Below, in pieces: positions 24,851 through 46,204 of a stretch of 64,000 nucleotides of DNA. Source of the stretch: an uncultured Flavobacteriaceae bacterium (GTDB lineage: Bacteria; Bacteroidota; Bacteroidia; Flavobacteriales; Flavobacteriaceae); assembly GCA_947502975.1 (NCBI GenBank), contig CANNBV010000002.1, positions 310,001 to 374,000 on the forward strand. The letters are read 5' to 3'. Every line of letters begins with the position of its first letter. The first letter of the stretch is position 1. The translations under genes were made by a program, and so were the position numbers. The notes beneath the pieces are model-generated. The model was not told the DNA's origin. It searched no databases and was given only the letters and a program-made list of their open reading frames with translations.

Positions 24851-24886
24851 ATGTTTTTGTATTTTGTATACAAAATACAAAAACAT
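24851..24886. promoter_or_regulatory. Perfect 36-bp palindrome, operator of the divergent kelch/24929 pair
   Basis: Every base from 24851 to 24886 pairs with its mirror; the core is TTTTGTATACAAAA. It lies 50 bases upstream of the kelch ATG and 43 upstream of the 24929 ATG, just ahead of a -7 box (TATATTTG, 24892-24899). This suits a dimeric, GntR-like regulator controlling both genes. No GntR gene is in the window. Confidence 0.8.
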
Positions 24887-24891
24887 CATTA

Positions 24892-24899
24892 TATTTGTT
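24892..24899 (+). promoter_or_regulatory. Putative -7 box for the gene at 24929
   Basis: TATATTTG fits TAnnTTTG and lies 30 bases before the chosen ATG. It also argues against the earlier in-frame ATG at 24851, which would be upstream of the transcription start. Confidence 0.5.
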
Positions 24900-24928
24900 T
24901 TCTAAATAAATTAATAATATTTGTTGAT

Positions 24929-25798
24929 ATGCTAAAATTAATTGTATTTCCTTTCATTTTACTTTCCTTTTTTTCTTGTAAGACCAATGCTCAATCATGG
25001 GTTTACAATAATAATAGAATTGCAGTAAGTTTTGATGGCAATAGTGAACCTGATAATGACTATAAGTGGCCAACAGGCGACCCAGATGATTGGGGTGCTG
25101 CGGCAGCTTCTTTCGCAATAATGGCTAAATTAAAATTACAAACTAAACTTGTTCATTGTTCCTATAATAATTTTATAGATGCGCCAGCAGGTCCAGATAA
25201 TGAAAATCAATTAAAGATAAGTTGTGAAGGTGCTGCAAAAAGGTGGGGTTTTAACGAAGATGTGATATATGACGTTACCACTCAGAAAAATGAGGCTGTA
25301 TTTAATTTAGCATCAGAAATAGGAAAATCTACAAAAGAAGACCCTTTGTATTTTATGCATGCAGGATTATCCGAATTTTTGTATCAAGTTGTTGAAGAGG
25401 TTATTAAACAGGGTAAAATTGAGTCTTTAAATCATGTATATCTTTTGTCACATAGTGGCTTCAACGAGAATGAAAAAAGAAGGGATTTTCATCATACGTG
25501 GAAGGATGTTCAACAAATAGCTGATAATCGAATTAAATACAAGAAGATAAAAGATCAGAATAATAAAACAGTTCCAAATGACTTATGGCACTCAGGAAAG
25601 GATTTTTCAGTTTGGTATTGGATGAGAGATCATCAGGATGAAACTATTCAATGGATGTATACCAGACTTCAGGCGCATTCAGGTGGAGATGCTGACATTT
25701 CAGATTGTGGTATGTTTTATTATTTGTTAGTCGGTGATGATAATGGAAATCCAGAAAAGTTTAAAAATTTTATTGGCAATGGTATTGACATAAATTAG
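24929..25798 (+). CDS. Secreted protein of unknown function with nucleoside-hydrolase-like Asp motif
   Basis: A 289-residue protein. The start at 24929 is chosen over an upstream in-frame ATG (24851) because it gives a clean signal peptide (LIVFPFILLSFFSCKTNAQ), follows the -7 box and leaves the palindrome non-coding. I do not recognise the family firmly. Residues 31-55 (IAVSFDGNSE ... GDPDDWGAAAA) resemble the N-terminal beta-strand and Asp cluster of nucleoside hydrolases and DUF1593-type proteins (DxDPDD, then a helix). Other conserved-looking blocks are LYFMHAGLSEFLYQVVEE and VYLLSHSGFNENE, a ribose-hydrolase-like arrangement. It may be a periplasmic hydrolase acting on a glycoside. Function is not assigned. 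Confidence 0.7.
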   Translation: MLKLIVFPFILLSFFSCKTNAQSWVYNNNRIAVSFDGNSEPDNDYKWPTGDPDDWGAAAASFAIMAKLKLQTKLVHCSYNNFIDAPAGPDNENQLKISCEGAAKRWGFNEDVIYDVTTQKNEAVFNLASEIGKSTKEDPLYFMHAGLSEFLYQVVEEVIKQGKIESLNHVYLLSHSGFNENEKRRDFHHTWKDVQQIADNRIKYKKIKDQNNKTVPNDLWHSGKDFSVWYWMRDHQDETIQWMYTRLQAHSGGDADISDCGMFYYLLVGDDNGNPEKFKNFIGNGIDIN

Positions 25799-25953: not shown

Positions 25954-28836
25954 ATGAAATCAATTTATATAATAATTCTAGCTGTTTTTCTGAGTTCATC
26001 AAATTTATTTTCACAAAATGTTTCTGTCTCAGGAAGTTTAAAGAAGTGGCATAAGATAACACTAAGTTTTGAAAGTGAAGAACTAAGCGAAAATGATGCT
26101 AACAACCCCTTTCTGAATTACAGATTAAATGTAATATTCAAAAAAGGAAATAGAGAGATTAAAGTTCCTGGGTTTTTTGCCGCTGATGGTAATGCTTCAG
26201 AGACAAGTGCTACTTCAGGTAAAATTTGGCAAGTACGTTTTATGCCAGATGAAATAGGAGAGTGGGAATATGAAGCGTCTTTTAGAAAAGGAAAAAATAT
26301 TGCAATAAGTGATGATCCTGTGGTAGGAGAGCCAACGGCTTTCAATGGTATAAAAGGAAAATTTACTATTTCGGCAGCAGATGAAACGGGTTCCTTATTT
26401 CAATCTAAAGGAAGACTAAAATATGATGGCACCCGATATTTAAAATATACAGATACTAATGAACCATTTTTAAAAGGTGGTGCTGACAGTCCTGAGAGTT
26501 TCCTTGCGTATTATGAGTTTGACCAAACACCGCCTTCGCATAAATATGAAGCACATGCTAGAGATTGGAAGACAGGTGACCCAATGTGGCAAAATGGTAA
26601 AGGAAAAAATATTATTGGCGCTTTAAATTATCTAGCTTCGAAAGAAATGAACTCTGTTTATTTTTTAACTATGAATGTACAAGGAGATGGTAATGATGTA
26701 TGGCCATGGAATGATAAAAATGAACGTTATCGTTTTGATTGTAGCAAGCTAGACCAATGGGAAGTCATTTTTGATCATATGGATGATTTAGGTTTGATGT
26801 TGCACATTGTTACCCAAGAAACAGAAAATGAGCTGCTACTTGATATTGGAGAATTAAAGACACAACGTAAATTATACTATCGAGAACTGATAGCACGTTT
26901 TGCACATCATTTGGGGGTTACATGGAATTTAGGAGAGGAAAATGGCTGGCAAAAATGGACACCAAAAGCGCAGAATGATAAGGATAGAAAAGCCATGGCT
27001 AAGTATATAAAAACTAATGATCCATATAAAAACTTAGTCGTACTCCATACTCATGCTGTAACACCAGCTCAAGACTTGTTTTTAAATCCGTTGTTAGGTT
27101 ATGAGTATCTAGATGGTCCATCCATGCAAACACATCATCCTCATGACGTTCATCACCTTATTGTTAAATGGATAAATAATTCAAAAAAATCAGGAAAACA
27201 ATGGGTAGTATGTCAAGACGAGATTGGGCCAGCAGATACAGGAGCAAAACCAGATGCTGACGATCCAGATCATGATCATATAAGACACCACGTATTATGG
27301 GGGAATTTAATGGCTGGAGGTGCTGGAGTGGAATGGTATTTTGGCTATAAATATGCGCATAATGATTTAAAATGTGAAGATTGGCGTTCAAGAGATATCC
27401 TTTGGGATCAAACACGATATGCTTTAGATTTTTTTAAAAACTATGTACCATTTACAGAAATGTTTAATGCTAATGGGTTGACAGACAATGAAGGCGATTA
27501 TGTTCTGGCAGACCATGGAAAGGCTTACGTAGTCTATTTACCTGAAGTAAAAGACACCAAAATTAATTTGTTAAATACCGATGCTAAGTTTAGTGTAAAA
27601 TGGTATAATCCTAGAAAAGGAGGTGAATTACAGAAAGGAAGTGTAAGTACCATTAAAGGTGGTGGGATGCGTTCTTTAGGAAATCCACCAAATAATTCTA
27701 AAGATTGGGTAGCATTACTACTTTCAAAAAGTAAAACTTCAAAGCAGGCCACTGCAAAAGGAAAACTATGGAAGTTAAAAGCTACGAAAGATTTTGAGAT
27801 TCTTAACGGAATAAAAGCTAATTATTACATTGATAATGGTAATAGTGTATTAGCGATAAACGCGGCAGATAAAAACCAAAGAGACGCTTTTGCTTCAGCT
27901 AGAATAATTTTTGAAGGAAAATCAGGTGTCTATAATGGGCTTTTAAAAACGATGACAGAAAACGATGGAGAATCTATCTACAAAATTCTTATAAATGGAG
28001 ATGAGGTAGTACGTGTTGAAAATCCAAAAACCAAAGCTAATTTTGAAAATGTAATACATGACTTAGGTTTATTAGTTTTAAATACAAAAGATATTATTGA
28101 AGTACAATCTAAAGCTGTAACAAATGGTGAAATTCCTGAAAATGATGAAACAGCATGGTCTAGAGGTAGGTGGGGCAGTTTAGAATTATCTCCTAAGGGT
28201 TTAATATCAAATGAAAACGATCGTCTTGTAGCATTATTAGAAGATAAGAAGCCCTATAAAGAGCAATCGGGTTTTGTTGAGATAGAAGCAGAAGCATTTC
28301 ATCATAAATCTGCGAATGATTCTCCTCGTGAGTGGTATGTGATTTCCAAAGATAAAATGCCATTTCAAGAGGCTAACTATACAAATCATTCTAGTACAGC
28401 AAGCGGTAATGCATATTTAGAAGCGTTACCTGATACTCGTGTAACTCATGAAGATGCACTCATTGCCGAAGAAAATTTCTTCCCAATTCCTGGAGTAGGA
28501 GGTACAGTTTCTTATAAAATAAACATTACTACGCCTGGCAAATATTATGTTTGGGTAAAAGCATTTTCTTCGGGTAGTGAGGATAATGGTTTACATGTAG
28601 GCTTAGATGGAGAGTGGCCGGAAAGTGGTGCAAGAATACAATGGTGTGAAGGTAAAAATCAGTGGACATGGTCTTCGGCACAACGTACTGAAGAACAACA
28701 TTGTGGTGTGCCACAAAAAATATATTTAGAAATAAAAGAAGCTGGAGACCATATTATCACATTCTCAATGCGAGAAGATGGTTTTGAGTTTGATAAGTTT
28801 ATATTAGCATCTAATCCCAACTTTAAACCAGAATAA
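25954..28836 (+). CDS. Large secreted DUF5060-type glycoside hydrolase with C-terminal CBM-like domain
   Basis: The 960-residue protein has a signal peptide (AVFLSSSNLFSQ), a DUF5060-like beta-sandwich (about 25-125), a clan GH-A-like TIM barrel (about 150-510; NYLASKEMNSVYFLTMNVQG, GVTWNLGEENGWQKW, WVVCQDEIGPA, LWGNLMAGGAGVEWYFGY), a collagen-binding-type beta-domain (about 520-600) and a C-terminal domain (about 770-960; EIEAEAFHHK, TPGKYYVWVKAFSSGSEDNG, SMREDGFEFDKFIL) like the CBM-type ends of other glycosidases. E in NLGEENGW and E in QDEIGP are candidate acid/base and nucleophile. Substrate is not known; the flanking agar genes suggest a galactan. It stands alone, with a 155-bp spacer upstream in which I see nothing firm. 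Confidence 0.8.
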   Translation: MKSIYIIILAVFLSSSNLFSQNVSVSGSLKKWHKITLSFESEELSENDANNPFLNYRLNVIFKKGNREIKVPGFFAADGNASETSATSGKIWQVRFMPDEIGEWEYEASFRKGKNIAISDDPVVGEPTAFNGIKGKFTISAADETGSLFQSKGRLKYDGTRYLKYTDTNEPFLKGGADSPESFLAYYEFDQTPPSHKYEAHARDWKTGDPMWQNGKGKNIIGALNYLASKEMNSVYFLTMNVQGDGNDVWPWNDKNERYRFDCSKLDQWEVIFDHMDDLGLMLHIVTQETENELLLDIGELKTQRKLYYRELIARFAHHLGVTWNLGEENGWQKWTPKAQNDKDRKAMAKYIKTNDPYKNLVVLHTHAVTPAQDLFLNPLLGYEYLDGPSMQTHHPHDVHHLIVKWINNSKKSGKQWVVCQDEIGPADTGAKPDADDPDHDHIRHHVLWGNLMAGGAGVEWYFGYKYAHNDLKCEDWRSRDILWDQTRYALDFFKNYVPFTEMFNANGLTDNEGDYVLADHGKAYVVYLPEVKDTKINLLNTDAKFSVKWYNPRKGGELQKGSVSTIKGGGMRSLGNPPNNSKDWVALLLSKSKTSKQATAKGKLWKLKATKDFEILNGIKANYYIDNGNSVLAINAADKNQRDAFASARIIFEGKSGVYNGLLKTMTENDGESIYKILINGDEVVRVENPKTKANFENVIHDLGLLVLNTKDIIEVQSKAVTNGEIPENDETAWSRGRWGSLELSPKGLISNENDRLVALLEDKKPYKEQSGFVEIEAEAFHHKSANDSPREWYVISKDKMPFQEANYTNHSSTASGNAYLEALPDTRVTHEDALIAEENFFPIPGVGGTVSYKINITTPGKYYVWVKAFSSGSEDNGLHVGLDGEWPESGARIQWCEGKNQWTWSSAQRTEEQHCGVPQKIYLEIKEAGDHIITFSMREDGFEFDKFILASNPNFKPE

Positions 28837-32796: not shown

Positions 32797-34278
32797 CTAG
32801 TTATTTTGAAGTAAGACATTGTTCCAATATGCTAATAATTCTTCATCTGAAACATCTTCTGGTAGTCCTAATTTCTTCATTTTAACTTTGAAATAGTTTT
32901 GAGATGCCTTTTTTCCTTTTTGAATAGTTTCTTCAGATTCTGGAATTTGGTTTTTGTCGTACGTTTTAAGGTTTTCTTGTAGCACAGATTTCAATCGGTT
33001 AAAATCAGTTTTATAAGACTCGTTTGTTGCGAGATTAATAAATTCATTTGGATCAGTATTCAAATCATATAATTCGAACTCTGGTCTGTTTTCTGCCATA
33101 AATTGATTGAATGGTGCTGGTAATTTTCCTTTTCTATGAAGTGTTCTATACAATGTGAATGCAGGATATTCACTTCTTTTATAACTTGATAGTTGCATCC
33201 ATGGTCTTTCTGGTTCTTGATTCCAAATCAATTTGTAACGACCATCTGTTACGCTTCTAATAGCATCTGGTGCATCACCTGTTCTTCCTCGAAAACCAAA
33301 CACAAAATCCCTTTTTTCTTGGTCATTACCAATACATACTTTTCCATGCAAATTGTATGGTGTTTTTAAGTCAGCTAAATCTAAAGTTGTAGCGGCTACA
33401 TCAACTAAACTCACTAACCTTTTATCAATTTCGCCAGCTTTTAAGTGTTTTGGATATCTTACGATTAATGGAATTTGAAGTCCACCTTCATATAAAAATT
33501 GCTTGTCTCTTAAATGTGGACGTCCATGGTCTCCAAAGAAGAAGATAGCCGTATTATTTACTAACCCTTCTTCCTCTAATCGCTGCATCACCCAACCAAC
33601 AATATCATCACATTTTTGAACAGACTCTAAATACAATGCCCAATCTGCTTTTAGTAAAGGATGGTTTAGATAGCAACTTGGAAGTATTACAGAGTCTGGG
33701 TTCACTGGGTTTTTTTCATCTTTATCAAATGTTCTATGCGGATACTTAATTTGTACTTGCGCAAAAAATGGTTGTCCATCTGCGCGTTCATCCCAATCCA
33801 TTCCATCGTATTTGATGTTAGGAAGGAAATTATAGTCTCTTTTCCCTGGGCTTTTTAAATAATCTTTACCACTACCGTTGGCGATAAAATAACCAGCTTC
33901 TTTAAAGTAATCTGTAATAGACTTAATGCCATCTGGTAGCTCTGTCCTATTAATAGTTCTATGGTTTAAGCTGTTAATAGTTGAGGGGTACATTCCCGTA
34001 ATTAATGAAGATCTACTAGATGAACAAATGGGTGCATTGGCATATGCATTGGCATATAAAGTGCCTTGTTGTGCAAGTTTATCAATGTTTGGGGTTTTTA
34101 CATCTGGATTGCCGTAACATGCTAGTTCTCTGCCTAAATCATCAGCGTTTATCCACAAAATGTTTAAAGGTTGTACAGACTTTTCTTCTTTGGTCTCTTT
34201 GCAACCTAATAAAAAAAGTATTGATATACTACAAAAAACAAATTTGGATATCTTACTCCTTACTTCGTAATTTTTCAT
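32797..34278 (-). CDS. S1-family sulfatase (heparan-N-sulfatase-like branch), lipoprotein
   Basis: A formylglycine sulfatase of 493 residues from the start at 34278 (34299 is an alternative). Both starts overlap the GH117 end; 34278 places the lipoprotein signal (ISILFLLGCKE) normally. Metal ligands appear in NILWINADDLGRELACYG; the maturation motif is C85-S-S-S-R89 (APICSSSRSSLITGMYPS), with Ser where Pro or Ala is usual. FFGDHGRPHLRDKQFLYEGG completes the site. It probably removes 6-sulfate or another ester from L-galactose or galactose units of the algal galactan; the position is inferred. The gene lies between two GH117-GH16 modules. Confidence 0.9.
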   Translation of the reverse strand: MKNYEVRSKISKFVFCSISILFLLGCKETKEEKSVQPLNILWINADDLGRELACYGNPDVKTPNIDKLAQQGTLYANAYANAPICSSSRSSLITGMYPSTINSLNHRTINRTELPDGIKSITDYFKEAGYFIANGSGKDYLKSPGKRDYNFLPNIKYDGMDWDERADGQPFFAQVQIKYPHRTFDKDEKNPVNPDSVILPSCYLNHPLLKADWALYLESVQKCDDIVGWVMQRLEEEGLVNNTAIFFFGDHGRPHLRDKQFLYEGGLQIPLIVRYPKHLKAGEIDKRLVSLVDVAATTLDLADLKTPYNLHGKVCIGNDQEKRDFVFGFRGRTGDAPDAIRSVTDGRYKLIWNQEPERPWMQLSSYKRSEYPAFTLYRTLHRKGKLPAPFNQFMAENRPEFELYDLNTDPNEFINLATNESYKTDFNRLKSVLQENLKTYDKNQIPESEETIQKGKKASQNYFKVKMKKLGLPEDVSDEELLAYWNNVLLQNN

Positions 34279-35536
34279 TTTCTTTTTCAATCCTTTCAAA
34301 TTGTTTTTTATTCAGGCCTTGTTTGTAATAAACCTCCAAATCATGACGAATACCGGTTTCTTTCATAACAGGGTCATCTATATCCTGACTTAGATCACAG
34401 TCAAAACGAGTTAAAATAGAATGTGGATTAATCTCATATTTTCCAGCATTTACAAAATGAGATAACCCCCAAGAAATTCCTCGTCCATCTTTAGTATCTG
34501 TAAAGGCATCTGGTACGTATGGTCCTGGTGCAATAGGTACTAATTCGCAAACCGATGCAATTTCAAAGTTCACCCAATCTTTAGCATATTGAATAGTGAA
34601 ATGCTCGGTGCCATCTTTTACCGTTATAGCTGCTACTCCTTCTTTAAAAGGAAATAAACTAACTTCATGACCCGAGCTAGTTAGAGGGTTTAGCGGGTGC
34701 TTTTTAAATGGGCCAAGTGGATCGTCTCCAATGACTAAACCTCCACCAACCCAAACCGGATTTGGTCTGTTGAAAGCCGATTTATAATAAATGTAAATTT
34801 TACCATCATGTACTAAAGGATATGGATCATGAATAGCGTATTGATCCCATGAGCCTTCAGGCCCGTTTTCAATAACTATTTTCCCTACAGGTGTCCAAGG
34901 TCCATCTGGAGAATCGGCATAAGAAGCTGTTACAGGACAATAATCACCACGTTTACCACTAGCTTCCATAAAACCTTGGTAATATAAATAGTATTTTCCT
35001 TTCCATTTTAGAATATCGGTAGTAGTGACAGAACGCCAGCCAACTTCAGGTTTTGGAGGTCTGGGTACCGCAACACTTTGTTCTTTCCAAGTAAAACCGT
35101 TTTCACTTGTTGCGTACCAGATTTCAGCTAAATCCCAATCGGTGGAAGGAATGGTATCATTACTTTTATCTGCATTTCTTGCTCCTACCGGAATAACAGG
35201 AGTGTCTCTTTTTGTATACCAAACATAATACTTTCCGTTTTCGAAAATAACTTTTGACGGGTCTCTACGCGATATTGTTCCATCATGATTATTATAATTA
35301 AAACCTTTTAACTCTGTGTATTTAAACTGAGAATACAACTCGTTATTTCTGGGATGAATAGCACTGTAATGATTAAAACTTCTGTCCATTGCAGCACTAA
35401 GCTTTCTGTTTTTGGTACTATCTGTTATGATGTAAGGAAATGCTCCCTGATTACTAGTTTCTTTAGATTCTTTTTTCGATTGATTTTCACAGCTTATTAT
35501 GCCAATTAAAAGCAGCGGTAACAATAATTTTTTCAT
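34253..35536 (-). CDS. GH117-family five-bladed propeller glycosidase
   Basis: The 427-residue lipoprotein (LLIGIISCENQ) carries SxAxxR as SAAMDR (residues 47-52), base D92 ([19 protein letters not shown]), D237 (AIHDPYPLV) and acid H290 (SSGHEVSLF). It is a close paralogue of the gene at 30522, sharing long blocks such as ELYSQF-YTELKGF-YNNHDG and [19 protein letters not shown]. Two divergent copies in one operon suggest two related alpha-linked residues, for example L-AHG and a modified form, but this is inference. Its 3' end overlaps the sulfatase start, so the two are translationally linked. Confidence 0.9.
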   Translation of the reverse strand: MKKLLLPLLLIGIISCENQSKKESKETSNQGAFPYIITDSTKNRKLSAAMDRSFNHYSAIHPRNNELYSQFKYTELKGFNYNNHDGTISRRDPSKVIFENGKYYVWYTKRDTPVIPVGARNADKSNDTIPSTDWDLAEIWYATSENGFTWKEQSVAVPRPPKPEVGWRSVTTTDILKWKGKYYLYYQGFMEASGKRGDYCPVTASYADSPDGPWTPVGKIVIENGPEGSWDQYAIHDPYPLVHDGKIYIYYKSAFNRPNPVWVGGGLVIGDDPLGPFKKHPLNPLTSSGHEVSLFPFKEGVAAITVKDGTEHFTIQYAKDWVNFEIASVCELVPIAPGPYVPDAFTDTKDGRGISWGLSHFVNAGKYEINPHSILTRFDCDLSQDIDDPVMKETGIRHDLEVYYKQGLNKKQFERIEKENEKLRSKE

Positions 35537-35541
35537 ATTGA

Positions 35542-36786
35542 TTAACTTTTGTTTTTCTGGTAATACTTAACGTAATCTACTTTCATACTTGTCCCATCTA
35601 TACTGTCTTTTACTGGGCCTGCCCATTTTATAATAGCTAAACTTAACCAAATGGGAGTTTCACTGTGACAAAATTCATTCTTTTCCCTTCTTATTTCTTC
35701 GCCATCAAAGTAAAATACAATTTCTTCCTCGTTCCACAATAAACCATAAGTATGAAACTCGTTTGCAAAATCATAGCTATCTTTGACGTTTAGAACCGAA
35801 ATATCCTTCCATTCACCATCATCTAAATATTGAATTTTATAATCTTTGATCAAATCATGCCAATCACCATTTGCAGATTGCCAACCGTTTAAAAACTGAA
35901 TACAACCAACAGTTATTTCATTGTGCCACTCAAACTCCACCCATTTCTGCGCTTCATCTTGTGTACTCCATCTTGAGTTTGGATTACCATCAATCAAGTT
36001 TTTTTCTGAATTAGTATTTTTATAAGAACCGCTAGATGTTATTATTACATTTTCTGCAGCTGCTAAATTTTTCAAATTTGGGATATCTCTATCAGCTGTT
36101 ATAGAAAGTACATCAGGATAATTTCCATTGTTCAAACCATATACCCTGAATTCCCCCATATGGAAGCGCCCGTTATTAGTTGATTGAAATCGAATTTTTT
36201 TGGTGTTTACTGGTATTTCTAACTGAATAGAATAACCGCTTTTGGTCCCATAAGCAAAACCTTTATGGCTAGAAGGGTGTTTTCTTTTACCATCTTTTGT
36301 AGTTGTAATATCTGACCAGTTGTGAATGTTGGTATTGACCTCATTAGGGTAGTGTCCCTCATTAATATCAATTTCAAAACGTTTTCCTTTTGTTGGTTGC
36401 CCGCCGCCTTTGGTCATCAACCAAAATGAATTGTTAGTGGCTTCAGCACCGGCATACTTATAACGGCATTCAAAATACCCATACTTGAATCTCTTCTTCG
36501 TCCAAATACTTCCCGAAGTCCATTCTTGTCCAGCACGATTTTCTTTCCTGTTTTCTAGATGTAAAACACCGCTTTTAACAACCGCGTTTTCTCTCCAACG
36601 GCTGCAAAGAATATGTCCACTTGGTCCATTTTGAGATTCCCAATTTTTATCTAGGTGTTTGTCTGTATAATTAAAATTGTCTTCCCAAATTAATTTATAA
36701 CTACCCTTTATATGAGATGGCAATTGGGCATATGCCATTCCTGCTAGCAAAAAAAATAAAATTAATGAGGTATTTAGTCTTACCAT
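35542..36786 (-). CDS. GH16 endo-hydrolase with a discoidin-like module inserted in the catalytic domain
   Basis: A 414-residue secreted protein (signal peptide ending LAGMAYAQ). The GH16 fold runs from LIWEDNFNYTDKHLDKNWE (32-50) through nucleophile E138, D140 and acid/base E143 (RFEIDINEGHYPN) to about residue 175. It then resumes at EFHTYGLLWNEEEIVFYFDG (343-362) and finishes at KVDYVKYYQKN. Residues about 180-340 are an inserted beta-domain of F5/8-type-C (CBM32-like) character: IRFQSTNNGRFHMGEFRVYG (198-217) is the usual C-terminal strand pair, and NLIDGNPNSRWST ... YKIQYLDDGEWKDI (263-329) the usual N-terminal part, so the order seems permuted. Likely acts on agar/porphyran-type galactan. 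It overlaps the GH2 stop by 7 bases. Confidence 0.87.
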   Translation of the reverse strand: MVRLNTSLILFFLLAGMAYAQLPSHIKGSYKLIWEDNFNYTDKHLDKNWESQNGPSGHILCSRWRENAVVKSGVLHLENRKENRAGQEWTSGSIWTKKRFKYGYFECRYKYAGAEATNNSFWLMTKGGGQPTKGKRFEIDINEGHYPNEVNTNIHNWSDITTTKDGKRKHPSSHKGFAYGTKSGYSIQLEIPVNTKKIRFQSTNNGRFHMGEFRVYGLNNGNYPDVLSITADRDIPNLKNLAAAENVIITSSGSYKNTNSEKNLIDGNPNSRWSTQDEAQKWVEFEWHNEITVGCIQFLNGWQSANGDWHDLIKDYKIQYLDDGEWKDISVLNVKDSYDFANEFHTYGLLWNEEEIVFYFDGEEIRREKNEFCHSETPIWLSLAIIKWAGPVKDSIDGTSMKVDYVKYYQKNKS

Positions 36787-38495
36787 TCTTTATAAACTTC
36801 TTTTAATTGATGATAAGCTTTCTTTTGATTTCTTCTTTCATCGACTATTCCCCATTCTCTAAAACCAGATTCTGGCGTGCCTCTATAATTGCTTCTGTAA
36901 TCATTATAACTCCAAATAGAAACGCCTGTTATATATGATAAGTCCTTTAATTCTTGAAGGTAGTCAACCAACGCATCACTTAATACTGCATCTGGTGCTG
37001 GCCCTATTTGACCTATTCCTATTTCGGAAATGAAGATTGGCTTCCCTGGAAATTTTTTATTAGTTTTCTTAGCTAATTCTGGGGCTTTACCATAACTATT
37101 CATTGAAATAAAATCAACTTTTTCATAGGGTTCTGTTCCTATCTTTCCCTTTCTGTATGAGGTTATAGTAACGTAGGTCTTTAATCTGGTGGTATCTAAT
37201 TCATCTACATAATCTAACATGGAATTCACGTAACCATATTGGTCTTTGGTTAAAGCTTTAGTTTTCCAGTCATTTCCTGTGTTTCTTAATTCGTTTCCAA
37301 CACTCCAAGCAACTACAGATGGGTGATTGAAATCTCGTTCTATCATTTCTTTTAACCATTGTTTTGTTTGTGGGTTGTTCGGAAAGGATTGTTGGTCATC
37401 ATCGCCCCAAACGGGTATTTCCTCAACTACCAAAAACCCAATACTATCACATAATTTTAATAAGTTTTTAGATAGAGGTGCGTGCATGAGCCTTGAGAAA
37501 TTGCAACCCAAATTATATTTAATGTCGAACATGTCTTTCTTCACCAGATGATATGGTTCCGTATTACCATATTTGGGATGGTCATGAACGCGATTAACCC
37601 CATTCATTTTAACGGCCTCATTGTTTAAAAAGAATTGTTCACCTCTAGCTTCAAATTTTCTAATTCCGAACTTATCTGTCGCCGAATCAACTTCAATATC
37701 ACTTACTAAAATTGAACTATTCAATTCATAAAGATTTGGTGAATTGAAGTGCCATAATTTGACATCCGATAAATCCTTTTTGAATTTTAAATAAGAAACA
37801 GAAGTTGACTTTGCTTCAATCTGAATACTTAGTGAATCTGTATGAACACCTTCAATTTTAGAATTAATTTTGGCTAAAGCTTTAGTGTCACCATTATTTT
37901 CAACCTTATATTTCACAATGAAGTTGACTTTATTGGTTTTAAAATCGGGTTCTGAAGTAATATGATGATATACAATCCTAACATCTTCATTTGCAATTAG
38001 GGAAACATTTCTACTAATACCTCCCCATGCCCACCAAGCACCTCGTTTATAGGTGTTATCTGCCATAACGATAACAGAGTTTCGATTTTTGAAATCAATC
38101 TTATCCGTAATATTGAATTCAAATGGTGTGTAGCCTCCCACGTGTTTTCCCAATAAATTTCCGTTTAACCAAACTTTTGCGGTTTCATAAACAGCATCAA
38201 ATTTTAATCTTACTTGTTTACCATTCCAACTTCTGGGGAGCTCAAAAGACTTTTGATAATAACCCTTACCAACATATTCTGAATAGCGATCTCTAGTATC
38301 CCAGTTTCCTGGAATTTGAATGGTATCCCATTTTGCATATGATGCTTCTAAAATACCTTTTGAATCAATTTCATTTGAAGCCAAAAATTGCCAAGTGCCA
38401 TTAAGAGAGTATTCCTTTGATAGTATTTCTGGTGAACTATCTCTACACGAATAAATAACTGCAAAAAGAAATAATATGAAAGTAACCCTTTTCAT
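36780..38495 (-). CDS. GH2 beta-galactosidase-type lipoprotein
   Basis: A compact GH2 enzyme of 571 residues with a lipoprotein signal (LFAVIYSCRD), sugar-binding jelly roll (about 28-170, YYQKSFELPRSWNGKQVRLKF), Ig domain (about 175-275) and TIM barrel. The acid/base is E402 (VVAWSVGNELRN), the nucleophile E491 (KPIFISEIGIG). It lacks the long C-terminal domains of larger GH2 enzymes. In a red-algal galactan operon an exo-beta-D-galactosidase is the best guess; glucuronidase-like specificity cannot be excluded. It lies 5 bases after the propeller gene at 38501. Confidence 0.9.
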   Translation of the reverse strand: MKRVTFILFLFAVIYSCRDSSPEILSKEYSLNGTWQFLASNEIDSKGILEASYAKWDTIQIPGNWDTRDRYSEYVGKGYYQKSFELPRSWNGKQVRLKFDAVYETAKVWLNGNLLGKHVGGYTPFEFNITDKIDFKNRNSVIVMADNTYKRGAWWAWGGISRNVSLIANEDVRIVYHHITSEPDFKTNKVNFIVKYKVENNGDTKALAKINSKIEGVHTDSLSIQIEAKSTSVSYLKFKKDLSDVKLWHFNSPNLYELNSSILVSDIEVDSATDKFGIRKFEARGEQFFLNNEAVKMNGVNRVHDHPKYGNTEPYHLVKKDMFDIKYNLGCNFSRLMHAPLSKNLLKLCDSIGFLVVEEIPVWGDDDQQSFPNNPQTKQWLKEMIERDFNHPSVVAWSVGNELRNTGNDWKTKALTKDQYGYVNSMLDYVDELDTTRLKTYVTITSYRKGKIGTEPYEKVDFISMNSYGKAPELAKKTNKKFPGKPIFISEIGIGQIGPAPDAVLSDALVDYLQELKDLSYITGVSIWSYNDYRSNYRGTPESGFREWGIVDERRNQKKAYHQLKEVYKEW

Positions 38496-40746: not shown

Positions 40747-43700
40747 CTAGTTTTGTCTGGCCTCAACAGTATGAGACCATTTGCTATCCCCGGATTCAGT
40801 TTGGCGCTTTATTTGGCAATAAACAGTTTCCTCTCCGTTTAAATCAATAGACACCATACCTCTTACATTCGATGTGAATTCCATATCAAGATTATCTTTA
40901 GAAACCCCATATTTCACAATGTAATTTCCGTCATCAAAATCACTTGAGTAACCAATCACCAACTTATTATCCGTAATAAATGCATCCCAAATTATAGGTG
41001 GTAATGGGTTTTCAGTTGGGGTAGCTTGCTTTTCTTCAGAAGGACTACTCGCAGCTTTATCATTTACAGTATAAAGTTTGAAACTATAGACTTTTCCATT
41101 GGTCAAACCTTCTATATCTATATACTCTGCAATAGTTTTATTTGATTCTACAATATTACCTTCATCGTTTTGATAGGTTGCAAAATACTCGGAAGCATTA
41201 GGTACTTTATCAAATAGAATTCTAACGGCATTATTGCCAGGAATTATTTTTGAAATTTTTGGGGTTAATGCATTTTGGAATGAAATGGTTTTATCAAATC
41301 TGGAGTGCCCTGTTGGACTAACTAAGTTAACAGTCATATCTAAAACATTATTTGGTATACTTTCCCAAGAAAGTGTGTCTCTCCAAAAATCGTTTTCTGG
41401 TTTTAAAATAGGTAGATCCTTTCGGTTTTTAGAAATTACCTTGCCCTCAGCATTCTTAAATTCATATTCTAATGCATAATTATTCAATGTATAACTTGGG
41501 TAACCACTTCTGGAGTTCATATGGATACTCACTACAGCTGTATTTTTTTCAAAATCAATATCCGAAATGATAATATCCTCAATAGGAGCATGTTCTTTTT
41601 TGATACGGTCAAATAATTTTCGTTTTTGTCTCCATACGTTAATTAACCCCCAAACTCTATTCTCCTCTGCGGTAGTTCCAGCATACCCACTTCGATAATC
41701 ATTGAAGGTCCACATTGATGTTCCTATTACGAATTCGTTTTTATTTCTAAAATGACTCATCCAATCCGATATTATTTCCTTGTCACTATTCAAACCAGTT
41801 GAAGGAAAAGGTCCAAATCCAAACTCAGAAATAAAAATTGGTTTATCTGGCCATTTTGTTCTTAAAGCATTTAATATATCTTGTGGTTCTCCTTGCCAGG
41901 GGTACATATTATGCATAATTAAATCTGAAAAGGTGTTCGGGTCGGTTTCTGGTGTATATTCTTCCTTTTGGCCAGAATTGCTCACACAAGTCACCAATCT
42001 GTAAGGGTCTAATTCTTGTTTCACATAATCAATAGCAGCTTTACCATATTCAAAGTGATTATTTAACTCATTACCCACACTCCAGCCAATAATGCTTGGA
42101 TGGTTTAAATCCCGTTCTATCATTCCTTTTAACCAATATTTTGAAAGAAAATAGTTTTTATCAGATAATGATAATAATGAATTGTCTGAGACTTTCATAT
42201 AAGGTTCATCGAGGGTTAGAATTTCCTTACTTTCATCATTTAAGCTAATTGATGTTTCACCACTGTTAAGTTGAGAAAGTGGTTGGTAAACAGCTCTAAA
42301 TTCATCATTATCTAAGTCTCTTACGTTTATCTCTTCAAATAGTAAAATTCCTTTTTTATCACACAATTCAATAAGTTTTTCGTTTTGCGTGCCATGCATG
42401 ATTCTCATAAAATTAGCACCAGCCTCTTTCATTAAATCTACATCTTTTTCCAAAACTTCTAAAGGTTCTGAAGACCCCCAAAACCTACTTTCGCTTACTC
42501 TATTAAATCCTGCAAGTCGTACAGGCTCACCATTAAATAATAATTTAGAATCTGTTAATTCAACTTTTCGTATTCCAAAGTTATCATGTCTTGTGTCAAT
42601 TTCCTCATTACTATCTGACAAAGAAGTTTCAAGTGTATAAAGGTTTGGTTGGTCAAAATGCCATAGATTAACGTTTTCAGCTGATAGTGTTGTCTCTAAA
42701 TGAATAGCTTTTGAAGTATTTGGCTGAAGCTCAATAATTCCATTTAAAGTACCGATTTCAGTTTTATAAAATAGTTTCGAATTAACACTAATACTTCTTT
42801 TTTGATTAGAATTATTCTCAATCTTTACTTTTAATTTTACTTGAGCTGTACCTGTATCTAAATTTGGCTCTGCATGTATGTATTGATAGTCTATACGAAC
42901 ATCTTTGTTTTTTGAAAGCGTTACATCTCTAATAATACCTCCCCAGTTCCAAGTAGCACTTACTATAGCACTGTTATCGGCTTTAACAGCAATAACGTTT
43001 TTTCCATTAAAGTTTAGAGCATCGGTAACATCAAACTCAAAAGGTGTAAAACCACCTCTGTTCATACCTATAAATTTACCGTTAAGGTATACCTTTGCAA
43101 TGTGGTACACGCCTCCAAACTTTAAATAATATCTATTATCAGAAGCTTTTGTCCAACCTTGAGGGATATCAATTGTTTTTCTATACCAGCCAATTCCTGT
43201 ATAATTAGAAAAATCGTTTATCATACCCCAATGCCCTGGTACTTTTAAATTATACCACTCTGTGTCATCAAATTCCGTTTTGAATATATCTTTAGGCTCT
43301 TGTTTGGCCTTCAAATATTTTTCCTTAGAAATTTCTCTGAACATTACTGCATCAGCAGCTACAGCACCACTAGTAATGGCAGTAACTTCTAAGTAGTTTT
43401 TTTCTTCACTATTAAATTTAAAAATACCTAAACTGATCCATTCGTTACAAAATATTCTATGATTTAAGTATTTTGTTGTGATGCCGTTAGCATGCTTAAT
43501 GTTATATTGTGGCGTCATGTGAGACGCAAATGGAAATCGAGTAAAAGCTTGGTAATATCCAGATTTTTTAAAGTTTGGATAGTACTTAACATATGATGTG
43601 TCATTTTTATTACCTCCTTCTAAATCTGTATTAGTAAATGAGTGTTTCAGATAGTCTTTACCATATAACCTTGTGTTTCTTTCAGTAGTATTTAATACTC

Positions 43701-43914
43701 GCCAATTCCCAAAAATTTCAACAGAACTATCATCATTATCAATAACTAAGTCGGTTTTAGTTTCTTTGATATTTAGGTAATTAGAGCCTTCACCATAAAT
43801 AGTATGGAATTTCCAATTACCGTTTAAAGACAATTCGTCTTGTGGCAATACTTTTTTCTCAGATTTACATCCAAGTAAGACTAATGAAACAAGTATTAAA
43901 AGTAGTCTTCTCAT
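40747..43914 (-). CDS. Large GH2 enzyme with an inserted golvesin-like module and C-terminal FN3 region
   Basis: A 1055-residue lipoprotein from the ATG at 43914 (LVSLVLLGCKS); the earlier ATG at 43962 would overlap the preceding gene by 38 bases. The GH2 jelly roll starts at LSLNGNWKFHTIYGEGS (29-44), is interrupted at about 60-195 by a golvesin/xanthan-lyase-like domain (IFGNWRVL, SGYYQAFTRFPF, LGIFKFNSEEKNYLEV, AVAADAVMFRE) and resumes at FDDTEWYNLKVPGHW. Acid/base E616 (IIGWSVGNELNN) and nucleophile E697 (KPIFISEFGFGPFP) are in place. FN3-like strands occupy about 880-970. Probably an exo-beta-galactosidase of the agar/porphyran pathway; the substrate is inferred. Confidence 0.88.
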   Translation of the reverse strand: MRRLLLILVSLVLLGCKSEKKVLPQDELSLNGNWKFHTIYGEGSNYLNIKETKTDLVIDNDDSSVEIFGNWRVLNTTERNTRLYGKDYLKHSFTNTDLEGGNKNDTSYVKYYPNFKKSGYYQAFTRFPFASHMTPQYNIKHANGITTKYLNHRIFCNEWISLGIFKFNSEEKNYLEVTAITSGAVAADAVMFREISKEKYLKAKQEPKDIFKTEFDDTEWYNLKVPGHWGMINDFSNYTGIGWYRKTIDIPQGWTKASDNRYYLKFGGVYHIAKVYLNGKFIGMNRGGFTPFEFDVTDALNFNGKNVIAVKADNSAIVSATWNWGGIIRDVTLSKNKDVRIDYQYIHAEPNLDTGTAQVKLKVKIENNSNQKRSISVNSKLFYKTEIGTLNGIIELQPNTSKAIHLETTLSAENVNLWHFDQPNLYTLETSLSDSNEEIDTRHDNFGIRKVELTDSKLLFNGEPVRLAGFNRVSESRFWGSSEPLEVLEKDVDLMKEAGANFMRIMHGTQNEKLIELCDKKGILLFEEINVRDLDNDEFRAVYQPLSQLNSGETSISLNDESKEILTLDEPYMKVSDNSLLSLSDKNYFLSKYWLKGMIERDLNHPSIIGWSVGNELNNHFEYGKAAIDYVKQELDPYRLVTCVSNSGQKEEYTPETDPNTFSDLIMHNMYPWQGEPQDILNALRTKWPDKPIFISEFGFGPFPSTGLNSDKEIISDWMSHFRNKNEFVIGTSMWTFNDYRSGYAGTTAEENRVWGLINVWRQKRKLFDRIKKEHAPIEDIIISDIDFEKNTAVVSIHMNSRSGYPSYTLNNYALEYEFKNAEGKVISKNRKDLPILKPENDFWRDTLSWESIPNNVLDMTVNLVSPTGHSRFDKTISFQNALTPKISKIIPGNNAVRILFDKVPNASEYFATYQNDEGNIVESNKTIAEYIDIEGLTNGKVYSFKLYTVNDKAASSPSEEKQATPTENPLPPIIWDAFITDNKLVIGYSSDFDDGNYIVKYGVSKDNLDMEFTSNVRGMVSIDLNGEETVYCQIKRQTESGDSKWSHTVEARQN

Positions 43915-43924
43915 ATTTATTATA

Positions 43925-46204
43925 TTATTGACATAGTATTTCAAATATTGAGGCTGGAACATTATTAGAAGGATGTTCTACTTCAACTGTAAAGCCTTTT
44001 ATATTTAAAGTTTTCATTGGTTTAAATACATTTATGGTCTGATAATTATCTTCAACTTTATGAAGCACATTACCCTCTAAGTCTTTTATCACATAATTGC
44101 GGACACAAAAAGGTACTACCTCTTCGGGGTGTCCCATAAGTGTTGATTCCATGGGGTGATCATAATCTGAATCTAAAAACAATTTGATTTCTGAAATGGT
44201 TTTAGCTTCATCCCATTCCACTTTAAGTGTTGGGTTATCATCATTTAAATCGGCTACCCAAGCATTTACTGTTCTCCAAGGACGGACATAACCATTACCA
44301 ATATTATTGTTTTGGAAAGACCGGATAGGTGGTGAAATTTCCATGGCAATATTTTTACCTTCTGGTCTACGGTGTGGTGTCCAAAATTCAAATTCATCAA
44401 CCCCAATATTTGGTGGTGGTACTTGCTTACCATTATTTGATACCGCTTTATTAATACCGTTAAATACCGAGAGTACACCTGTATAACGGTTGTTACTAGT
44501 TTTTATGCTGACTTTATTGTTTGTCAAAAACGTAACAAAACCATATTGATTTGTTGGAACTCCAATAGAAAAATTAATAGTAATAGTTTGCTCTCCTTTT
44601 ACTAAATTGAATGATTGTGTTTCTAAAATAGCTTCTGGTGTATAGTTTTTAGGCTTTTTAGAGGTTCTTAATTGTATGTCTATTGTGGTTGCTTCATCAG
44701 TATTAATTAATACTTTAAATTGATAACTTCGATTAGCTTCAAATGGCAATAATTGAGCTGCAGAAATATTTAATTTGAACCAATCGCCATCAAATGGAAT
44801 TTCAGAAATTTGCAATGTTGAAGAGGTCTCAACCTTTGCTTCACGTATTAGATTAGAATCAGATTTTATTGGAATATTTGGTATGCTTTGACCAACAATA
44901 TTTAACTCATTTTGAAGATTTTTTATTTCACCGTTATTGAGAATATCAGCTGGTTTTAAATTCTTTTGAGTACACAATGCAGCAGCCATACCAACTGCTT
45001 GGGCACATAAACCAGTAGTAGCCATAACACGTGTAGAACCAAAGGCCACATGAGTTGCGCTAATGATTCTGCCGGCTAAAAATAAGTTGTCAATGTCTTT
45101 ACTTACAAATGAACGATAAGGTATATGATAGACGCCTTTGGAGTGCCATTGTGTACAGGCAGACAAATCACTATAAACCCCATCTGCTGGATGTAAATCT
45201 ATGGCCCAACCTCCGTGCGCTATAGCATCGTCAAACTCTTGCTGCTCAATAACATCTTGTTGTTTCATCATATACAAACCTTCAAATCGACGACTCTCCC
45301 GTTTCCCGGGGATAGTTCCAACCCATTCTAAGGTCATATTCTCAACATCTTCAAATTTACCTGAATTTTTAATGTAGTCCCAAACACCATAAATCACTTT
45401 CCATAACTCATATTTTATATGCTCTGTATCATGAATGGTATCATGACGTCCGCCATATTCAAACCACCAAAAACGACAACCTTTATCATCCTTTCCAATA
45501 GCTTTGTAACGGGGTATCTGCTTTATGTCTTTTAGCGCAAAGTCTGGAGCTTTAAACTTTACAGGCTTATCAGTGTTTTTACTGTAGAAATACATGGAGT
45601 GTCCCAATAATTCTCCATAAGATTTGTCGGGTGCAAACAATTCACCAAACTCTTCTTTGGGTTCTGCTCCCATTCTAAAAGATGCTCCGGCTTTAAAAGC
45701 AACTATACCATCTCCTGAAGCATCACAAAATAAAGGTGCCTTTGTAATATATTCGGTTGCATTCTGCGGGTTAAATGCTTTTATAGATTCTATTTCAGTA
45801 TCACTGGATTTATTGACATCATAAACGCAAGTGTTTAAGAGCAAAGTGATATTTTTTTCGTTTAAAACTTTTTCTAGTAAAATGGTATCAAAAATAACCG
45901 CGTTGCCTTCCGGGTTTCGATACAAATTCTCAACTAAAATCTCATTCATCACACCGCCCTCTCTGGACCATCGGTTATTATTGCCCATATGAGACGTAGC
46001 ACCTAATATCCAAAGTCTAACCTCTGACGAAGCATTGCCTCCTAAAACAGGGCGGTCTTGAATCAAAACGACTTTAATACCTTTTCTAGCGGCTGTAATT
46101 GCGGCACAAACACCCGCCGTTCCGCCTCCTGTAATGCTTAAATCACAGTTTAAAACTACCGTTTTATTATTCCTTTTTTTCTTATTAAAAGTTTCTAAAA
46201 TCAT
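43925..46204 (-). CDS. Cytoplasmic FAD-dependent oxidoreductase with C-terminal beta-sandwich domains
   Basis: A 759-residue protein without signal peptide. An FAD-binding Rossmann motif is at residues 24-45 (ITGGGTAGVCAAITAARKG, then VVLIQD), and FAD_oxidored landmarks follow: GGNASSEVRLWI, FCDASGDGIVAFKAG, NLFLAGRIISATHVAFGSTR. Residues about 450-560 and 620-759 are beta-rich; the latter (TISEIKLFLDSDYDHPMEST, FTVEVEHPS) looks like a discoidin-type module, odd for a cytoplasmic enzyme. It lies between the SSS symporter (10 bases) and the large GH2 in the galactan operon, suggesting oxidation of an imported sugar or oligosaccharide. Substrate and product cannot be read from sequence. Confidence 0.85.
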   Translation of the reverse strand: MILETFNKKKRNNKTVVLNCDLSITGGGTAGVCAAITAARKGIKVVLIQDRPVLGGNASSEVRLWILGATSHMGNNNRWSREGGVMNEILVENLYRNPEGNAVIFDTILLEKVLNEKNITLLLNTCVYDVNKSSDTEIESIKAFNPQNATEYITKAPLFCDASGDGIVAFKAGASFRMGAEPKEEFGELFAPDKSYGELLGHSMYFYSKNTDKPVKFKAPDFALKDIKQIPRYKAIGKDDKGCRFWWFEYGGRHDTIHDTEHIKYELWKVIYGVWDYIKNSGKFEDVENMTLEWVGTIPGKRESRRFEGLYMMKQQDVIEQQEFDDAIAHGGWAIDLHPADGVYSDLSACTQWHSKGVYHIPYRSFVSKDIDNLFLAGRIISATHVAFGSTRVMATTGLCAQAVGMAAALCTQKNLKPADILNNGEIKNLQNELNIVGQSIPNIPIKSDSNLIREAKVETSSTLQISEIPFDGDWFKLNISAAQLLPFEANRSYQFKVLINTDEATTIDIQLRTSKKPKNYTPEAILETQSFNLVKGEQTITINFSIGVPTNQYGFVTFLTNNKVSIKTSNNRYTGVLSVFNGINKAVSNNGKQVPPPNIGVDEFEFWTPHRRPEGKNIAMEISPPIRSFQNNNIGNGYVRPWRTVNAWVADLNDDNPTLKVEWDEAKTISEIKLFLDSDYDHPMESTLMGHPEEVVPFCVRNYVIKDLEGNVLHKVEDNYQTINVFKPMKTLNIKGFTVEVEHPSNNVPASIFEILCQ

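Follow-up and report, generated by a model that had tools for sequence, protein, structure and literature searches.

The closest described systems combine some of the features found here, each in a different arrangement. MtGlu5 is a GH5 endoglucanase with a CBM29-like domain inserted in the middle of its catalytic domain, as described in the accessible part of its report (PMC9063844), so the insertion of a CBM has a precedent in a GH family other than GH16. Among GH16 enzymes, the consulted sections of two reports state that about 75% of GH16_8 is linked to CBM32 (PMC6827312) and that LamA of Paenibacillus has a CBM32/discoidin module at its carboxyl-terminus (PMC2789033). A third, also available in part, identifies BpGH16C (Bacple_01703, 8ep4) as a methyl-porphyranase of GH16_14 encoded in a locus with GH2, GH29, and sulfatase (PMC12316285).

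Here we describe P0001, a protein encoded in a 64-kb window, the whole stretch of DNA that was analysed. Like MtGlu5, P0001 has a CBM-like module nested within its catalytic domain, and like the GH16_8 enzymes and LamA it pairs GH16 catalysis with a discoidin-type module. MtGlu5 differs in being a GH5 enzyme with a CBM29-like domain, and the accessible part of its report mentions no permutation (PMC9063844). The GH2, GH29, and sulfatase of the BpGH16C locus recur in this window, but BpGH16C, with a chain of 265 residues, lacks an insert of this kind. As a whole, the best explanation for P0001, which we rate at a probability of roughly 80%, is a two-segment GH16 enzyme with one circularly permuted discoidin domain nested inside it, which would hold glycan beside the cleft. 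The novelty is in the combination, as a permuted discoidin (GH35) and an inserted CBM (GH5) each have a precedent. A literature search, for the most part covering papers outside subscription, found no permuted discoidin nested in a GH16 enzyme.

A GH16 catalytic domain in two segments

The open reading frame that the original prediction had placed at 35542–36786 is present on the minus strand (36786..35542), and frame 1 of the plus strand has stops throughout this interval. The peptides that the prediction had quoted were likewise found in P0001 at the residues given for them. The N-terminus has an apparent signal peptide, judged by eye, and P0001 is probably a secreted, endo-acting enzyme. 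Comparison with phage records gave no match, and no experimental structure or activity was found for any member of the P0001 family.

Table 1 Features of the P0001 gene, its protein domains, and the flanking genes
Feature	Coordinates	Strand	Basis or remark
GH16 enzyme P0001 with nested permuted discoidin	35542..36786	minus	414 aa; stop codon within coordinates
GH16 catalytic domain, first segment (residues 28-166)	36289..36705	minus	Pfam GH16; AF2 model; VIA alignment
Catalytic motif E138-I-D140-I-N-E143 (ExDxxE)	36358..36375	minus	Invariant residues in alignment
Discoidin C-terminal half, first in chain (residues 170-223)	36118..36279	minus	Discoidin profile, hhalign
Linker joining natural C- and N-termini of discoidin (residues 224-235)	36082..36117	minus	Alignment; length varies
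Discoidin N-terminal half, second in chain (residues 236-336)	35779..36081	minus	Pfam F5_F8_type_C; CBM32 chain 2jd9
GH16 catalytic domain, second segment (residues 340-412)	35551..35769	minus	Pfam GH16 best stretch 337-406; AF2 strands
Neighbour, GH117-type enzyme	34253..35536	minus	Nearest PDB 4u6d and 4u6b, then 3,6-anhydro-alpha-L-galactosidases
Neighbour, GH2	36780..38495	minus	Pfam

Pfam GH16 matched P0001 in two separate stretches, with 63.6 bits against a curated cut-off of 22. With the insert cut out, a single stretch covered positions 9–174 of the 175-position profile at 73.2 bits. ExDxxE, also written ExDx(x)E, is the catalytic motif of GH16 enzymes, and residues E138, D140, N142, and E143 of P0001 were invariant among 65 aligned sequences. 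An AlphaFold2 model built from 65 sequences (pLDDT 92.8, pTM 0.86) places GH16 strands at 149–156 before the insert and 345–351 after it, the latter being followed in the second segment by strands 355–360, 363–369, 379–385, and 400–411. Compared by VIA, the whole model scored Z 24–27 against GH16 enzymes among the matches listed, the best at Z 27.2 with an rmsd of 2.5 over 226 aligned residues, and all 50 matches listed are GH16-type enzymes by title. In the model, residues 28–166 and 340–412 are one GH16 domain, a predicted β-jelly-roll with an intact motif. The original prediction had joined residues of about 1–175 and 343–414; its two-part domain is supported by both Pfam and AlphaFold2, while its limits were slightly wide in view of the two strands that border the insert.

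Searched with Foldseek, the whole model matched BpGH16C best, with an identity of 15% by Foldseek and 25% by VIA. Since VIA gave equally high scores to laminarinases and carrageenases, this match does not fix the substrate of P0001. Attempts to place P0001 in a numbered subfamily of GH16, or to name its exact substrate, were dropped, as the structural scores of laminarinase, carrageenase, and porphyranase by VIA lie close together.

The insert matches a discoidin with its halves exchanged

Pfam F5_F8_type_C matched P0001 at residues 249–331 only, covering profile positions 2–82 of 127 (E 2.5e-10, above the cut-off). When the halves of the insert were restored to their normal order, the match widened to positions 2–117; the score stayed flat (46.7 bits native, 46.6 restored) and coverage alone rose. 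For an order test across the family we used a 140-position profile built on 21 further discoidins from the same bacterial family, all with their halves in natural order, and defined a full-length match as one from position 35 or lower to at least position 125. Full-length matches were reached by 69 of the 81 restored inserts, compared with 0/81 in native order and 0.37% of 1620 controls in which the N-half was joined to a shuffled C-half; the other 12 restored inserts fell short of full length. Median best-domain scores were 35.5 bits restored and 24.4 bits native. The median span of the native order was 13–91, contributed by the second half of the insert, and that of the restored order was 12–136. 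The C-half alone, which is the first half of the insert, had a median match at 99–136 and extended to at least position 125 in all 81 cases. The restored order outscored the native one in every insert (81/81), and in 65 inserts it also beat each of the 20 shuffled versions of that same insert; it gained over the N-half alone in 73/81, with no gain in the remaining 8. P0001 itself scored 53.4 bits restored and 37.3 native.

Profile–profile comparison gave a similar picture, with hhalign aligning the native order to discoidin columns 22–93 only, the restored order to columns 20–137 (Prob 98.4), and the C-half alone to columns 96–138 (Prob 86.6). In the PDB, the N-half matched CBM32 chain 2jd9 by family profile (E 5.3e-7). 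On chain 7rga, which derives from a CBM32, the restored profile covered both halves (23–146) and the native profile the first part only (24–103). Restoring did not improve the best E-value, which for 2jd9 was 8.1e-6 restored (20 rows) versus 1.5e-6 native (50 rows), and matches at E of 1 or less numbered 23 restored and 41 native. The two best matches of the restored profile mainly covered the N-half, and a HMMER search of the PDB with the C-half profile alone gave no match. By these profile criteria the insert is a circular permutant of a discoidin, with the canonical order of N-half before C-half seen in 0/81. The reversed order of discoidin signatures claimed by the original prediction is therefore borne out by both the order test and hhalign, the discoidin profile having matched in two swapped, complementary pieces.

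In the whole-protein model, the insert contains strands at 172–178, 184–202, 209–216, 248–251, 281–300, 315–322, and 325–333. Predicted alone from 50 sequences, it again gave a confident AlphaFold2 model (pLDDT 91.2, pTM 0.86). Foldseek of the insert alone returned no match at E 0.001 or better. The match that stands out is 6eon (BT0290), with E 0.0015, TMq 0.60, and an rmsd of 4.5, and those below it are mostly unrelated β proteins. By VIA, the insert aligned with 6eon at Z 12.6 (rmsd 5.8, 131 aligned), while ordinary CBM32/discoidin chains mostly aligned over insert residues of about 50–167 at Z 7.5 or less. As modelled, residues 170–336 are a single, autonomous, and compact discoidin domain. 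Structure prediction thus returned the arrangement anticipated by the original prediction, with two GH16 segments around one autonomous domain; residues 170–336 did not form GH16 loops, and insert-free relatives exist. In this reading the catalytic ExDxxE strand of the GH16 jelly roll is followed by one more strand and then by a complete discoidin/CBM32-like domain, which breaks the jelly roll, has its natural N- and C-termini fused by a short linker, and is opened between its two halves.

Distribution and conservation of the family

Relatives of P0001 are rare near home, occurring in 3/98 other genomes of the relatives sample. A genome scan found 132 related stretches, of which the best 80 were retained as loci; because the scan patterns lie within the catalytic domain, the insert was not selected for. 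The 80 best loci belong to Bacteroidota, Verrucomicrobiota, Planctomycetota, Lentisphaerota, and Pseudomonadota. Many are from metagenome bins, and each of the five phyla also includes isolates, among them Rhodopirellula rubra, Pelagicoccus mobilis, Oligosphaera ethanolica, and Catenovulum agarivorans. With a profile of the N-terminal part of the catalytic domain, the family scored about 190–252 bits and other GH16 proteins at most 66 bits in scans of 395 and 299 genomes, in which the best 10–14 candidates per genome were scored.

From these loci 88 proteins were read out, 7 were dropped, and 81 were aligned. All 81 have the insert with its C-terminal half first, and both halves are present in every row. 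In the catalytic parts the aligned proteins have a median identity of 64% to P0001, which falls to 40% in the insert. Within the insert, K281 and the stretch Q297-F298-x-N300-G301-W302 are conserved in 81–98% of rows, and in the alignment K281, Q297-F298, and N300-G301-W302 are candidate contact residues. Circular permutation and domain insertion are here combined in one enzyme lineage across five bacterial phyla, and were seemingly reversed twice.

A separate observation concerns locus L008, where positions 1501–2268 (G013:C12 156736–157503) hold a third GH16 gene copy disrupted by stops and frame breaks; two intact copies lie no more than about 5 kb away on that contig.

Probable gain and loss of the insert

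Three close members lack the insert: L211 (261 aa), L248 from Marinoscillum furvescens (266 aa), and L249. Their catalytic domains are 72%, 74%, and 58% identical to that of P0001, respectively, and each gene lies directly beside an insert-bearing paralogue, in tandem with it. Four weaker relatives from 49 member genomes, L242–L245, scored 105–155 bits with the catalytic N-part profile and are also without the insert. The open frames of these sister lineages are 433–884 aa, with long N-terminal parts preceding the GH16 domain.

A tree of the catalytic domain, comprising 82 rows (75 with the insert and 7 without) and rooted by our own choice on L244/L245, requires three changes of insert state. 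The simplest reading would be one gain (branch support 100/99) followed by two clean losses. A tree with a single change, in which all insert-free rows fall on one side, was rejected at p-AU 0.0036, for a group defined after the tree was viewed and with L249_noins on a long branch. Several independent gains appear unlikely because the same permuted domain is at the same site. Alternatively, recombination may have swapped an insert-bearing for an insert-free stretch, which would mimic loss. Since three members retain the gene without the module, the module is not indispensable. The tandem insert-free and insert-bearing pairs, with catalytic identities to P0001 of 58–74%, are a test system for the effect of an internal binding module on a glycanase.

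Possible role of the insert

Since the catalytic strand and the strand where the insertion begins are neighbours, the insert should lie near the cleft. We propose that it may be a glycan-holding module fixed beside the active-site cleft, where it would add subsites or orient a chain of red-algal galactan (agar/porphyran type) for cleavage. Opening the discoidin at an internal loop would allow both domain ends to fit one loop of the catalytic domain, and the permutation would present to the cleft another face than an ordinary appended CBM would. Both glycan binding by the insert and an influence on the active site, if any, are inferred here. More tentatively, and with somewhat less than an even chance of being right, the insert may line one side of the substrate cleft as part of the active site and mark out a GH16 clade that as yet has no name, the permutation having been selected to turn the glycan-holding face to the cleft from one loop. 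If so, tandem insert-free and insert-bearing members would differ in substrate range and would be a natural before-and-after pair.

The inserted domain could instead be purely structural, serving stability, dimer formation, or contact with the cell surface or a partner, and hold no glycan. We lean against this possibility but give it appreciable weight. The lower median identity of the insert and the three members that do without it would fit such a role, whereas the conservation of K281 and the Q297–W302 stretch suggests a constrained surface, and in the accessible part of the MtGlu5 report the inserted CBM is described as important for affinity and catalysis (PMC9063844).

Possible origin of the permutation and comparison with GH35 enzymes

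A search with the insert profile across 296 genomes of Bacteroidota, the source genome of the window included, had matches in six. The only row outside the family to span both halves, L131, was considered as a new permuted domain and rejected, as the match, at insert profile positions 17–164, bridges two ordinary discoidins that stand in tandem. L131 (142–2046) is a GH29 enzyme, and tandems of this kind can mimic permuted modules in searches. The insert likely originated from tandem discoidins that would have lost their outer halves; tandems of this kind exist in the GH29 enzyme.

The solved structure whose match to the insert stands out, 6eon, is that of BT0290, which we take to be a GH35 enzyme, in keeping with the relatives that the GH35 profile retrieved. 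One of these GH35-type proteins, L135, has a C-terminal discoidin in which the C-half precedes the N-half. Its last 187 residues align end to end with 6eon 596–777 (E 5e-45), so 6eon shares the swapped order. All four GH35-type relatives checked (L135, L144, L145, and L146) are permuted by profile, with the C-half at 89–138 (3.7 to 16.6 bits, weak in some) and the N-half at 10–83 (27 to 38 bits). Two other matches, L147 and L148, have discoidins of ordinary order. With this precedent, a permuted discoidin is not new in itself. The insert of P0001 has the same swapped halves as the C-terminal domain of BT0290 (6eon ~596–777), but the BT0290 module is at the C-terminus and that of P0001 is inside the catalytic domain. 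The opening point is also about one strand earlier in the BT0290 type, where the N-half ends at profile position 81–83 rather than at 90–91 as in the GH16 insert. The two modules aligned by hhalign over the N-half only (Prob 24.5, E 0.0008, with four rows on one side). Given the different opening points and low sequence closeness, the GH16 and GH35 permutations are likely separate, and a common origin is not favoured.

Pfam annotates half of the P0001 discoidin and splits its GH16 domain, and permuted modules are therefore easily mistaken for fragments. The same misreading may apply to GH35 enzymes of the BT0290 type. The region could alternatively be the remnants of two tandem discoidins, the end of one and the start of the next, rather than one domain. 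True tandems do have the same reading order, as in the GH29 junction that the insert profile crossed. Nonetheless we consider this very improbable, since the two pieces are complementary and non-overlapping (median profile positions 13–91 and 99–136), both are retained in 81/81 aligned rows, AlphaFold2 confidently folds the isolated insert into a single domain, and 6eon is a solved structure of the same order. That the insert is an unrelated β-sandwich resembling a discoidin by chance is scarcely credible: the best single-sequence PDB matches of the restored insert were weak (E 0.03 or worse), but the Pfam F5_F8_type_C match above its cut-off and the profile and profile–profile tests all argue against it.

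Genomic neighbourhood and probable substrate

P0001 is encoded between an enzyme whose family we take to be GH117 and a GH2 enzyme (Table 1). Other neighbours in the window are GH43-like proteins, a second GH2 enzyme, a GH29 enzyme, a second GH16, a sulfatase, an FAD oxidoreductase, and an SSF symporter. Further off are an aldehyde dehydrogenase and an enolase-family protein, which presumably fit the use of anhydrogalactose. The GH117-type, GH2, and sulfatase neighbours point to red-algal galactan as the likely substrate at this locus, and P0001 probably acts on a galactan of this type (agar/porphyran).

We sought relatives of the neighbours by tblastn (E 1e-15, 40% coverage) in the flanking sequence retrieved for 82 loci; in these counts similar paralogues may stand in for each other, and the numbers are depressed where contigs are short. 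Relatives of the small GH2 were found in 41/82 loci, as were those of the two GH43-like proteins, followed by the large GH2 (38/82), GH117 (36/82), the symporter (28/82), the FAD enzyme (26/82), and the sulfatase (14/82). No GH117 relative was found in the retrieved flanks of 46/82 loci, which makes a single substrate for the whole family unlikely; members without GH117 may act on other substrates.

Three further proteins in the window have unusual features. Positions 24851–25798, between sugar-pathway and galactan genes, encode a 315-aa protein with no Pfam match at E 0.001. Beside the galactan genes, a 960-aa protein at 25954–28836 combines DUF5060 and Collagen_bind_2 with a weak GH115_C-type match. 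The GH2 enzyme at 40747–43962 has a Golvesin_C domain (residues 73–209) ahead of its GH2 sugar-binding domain.
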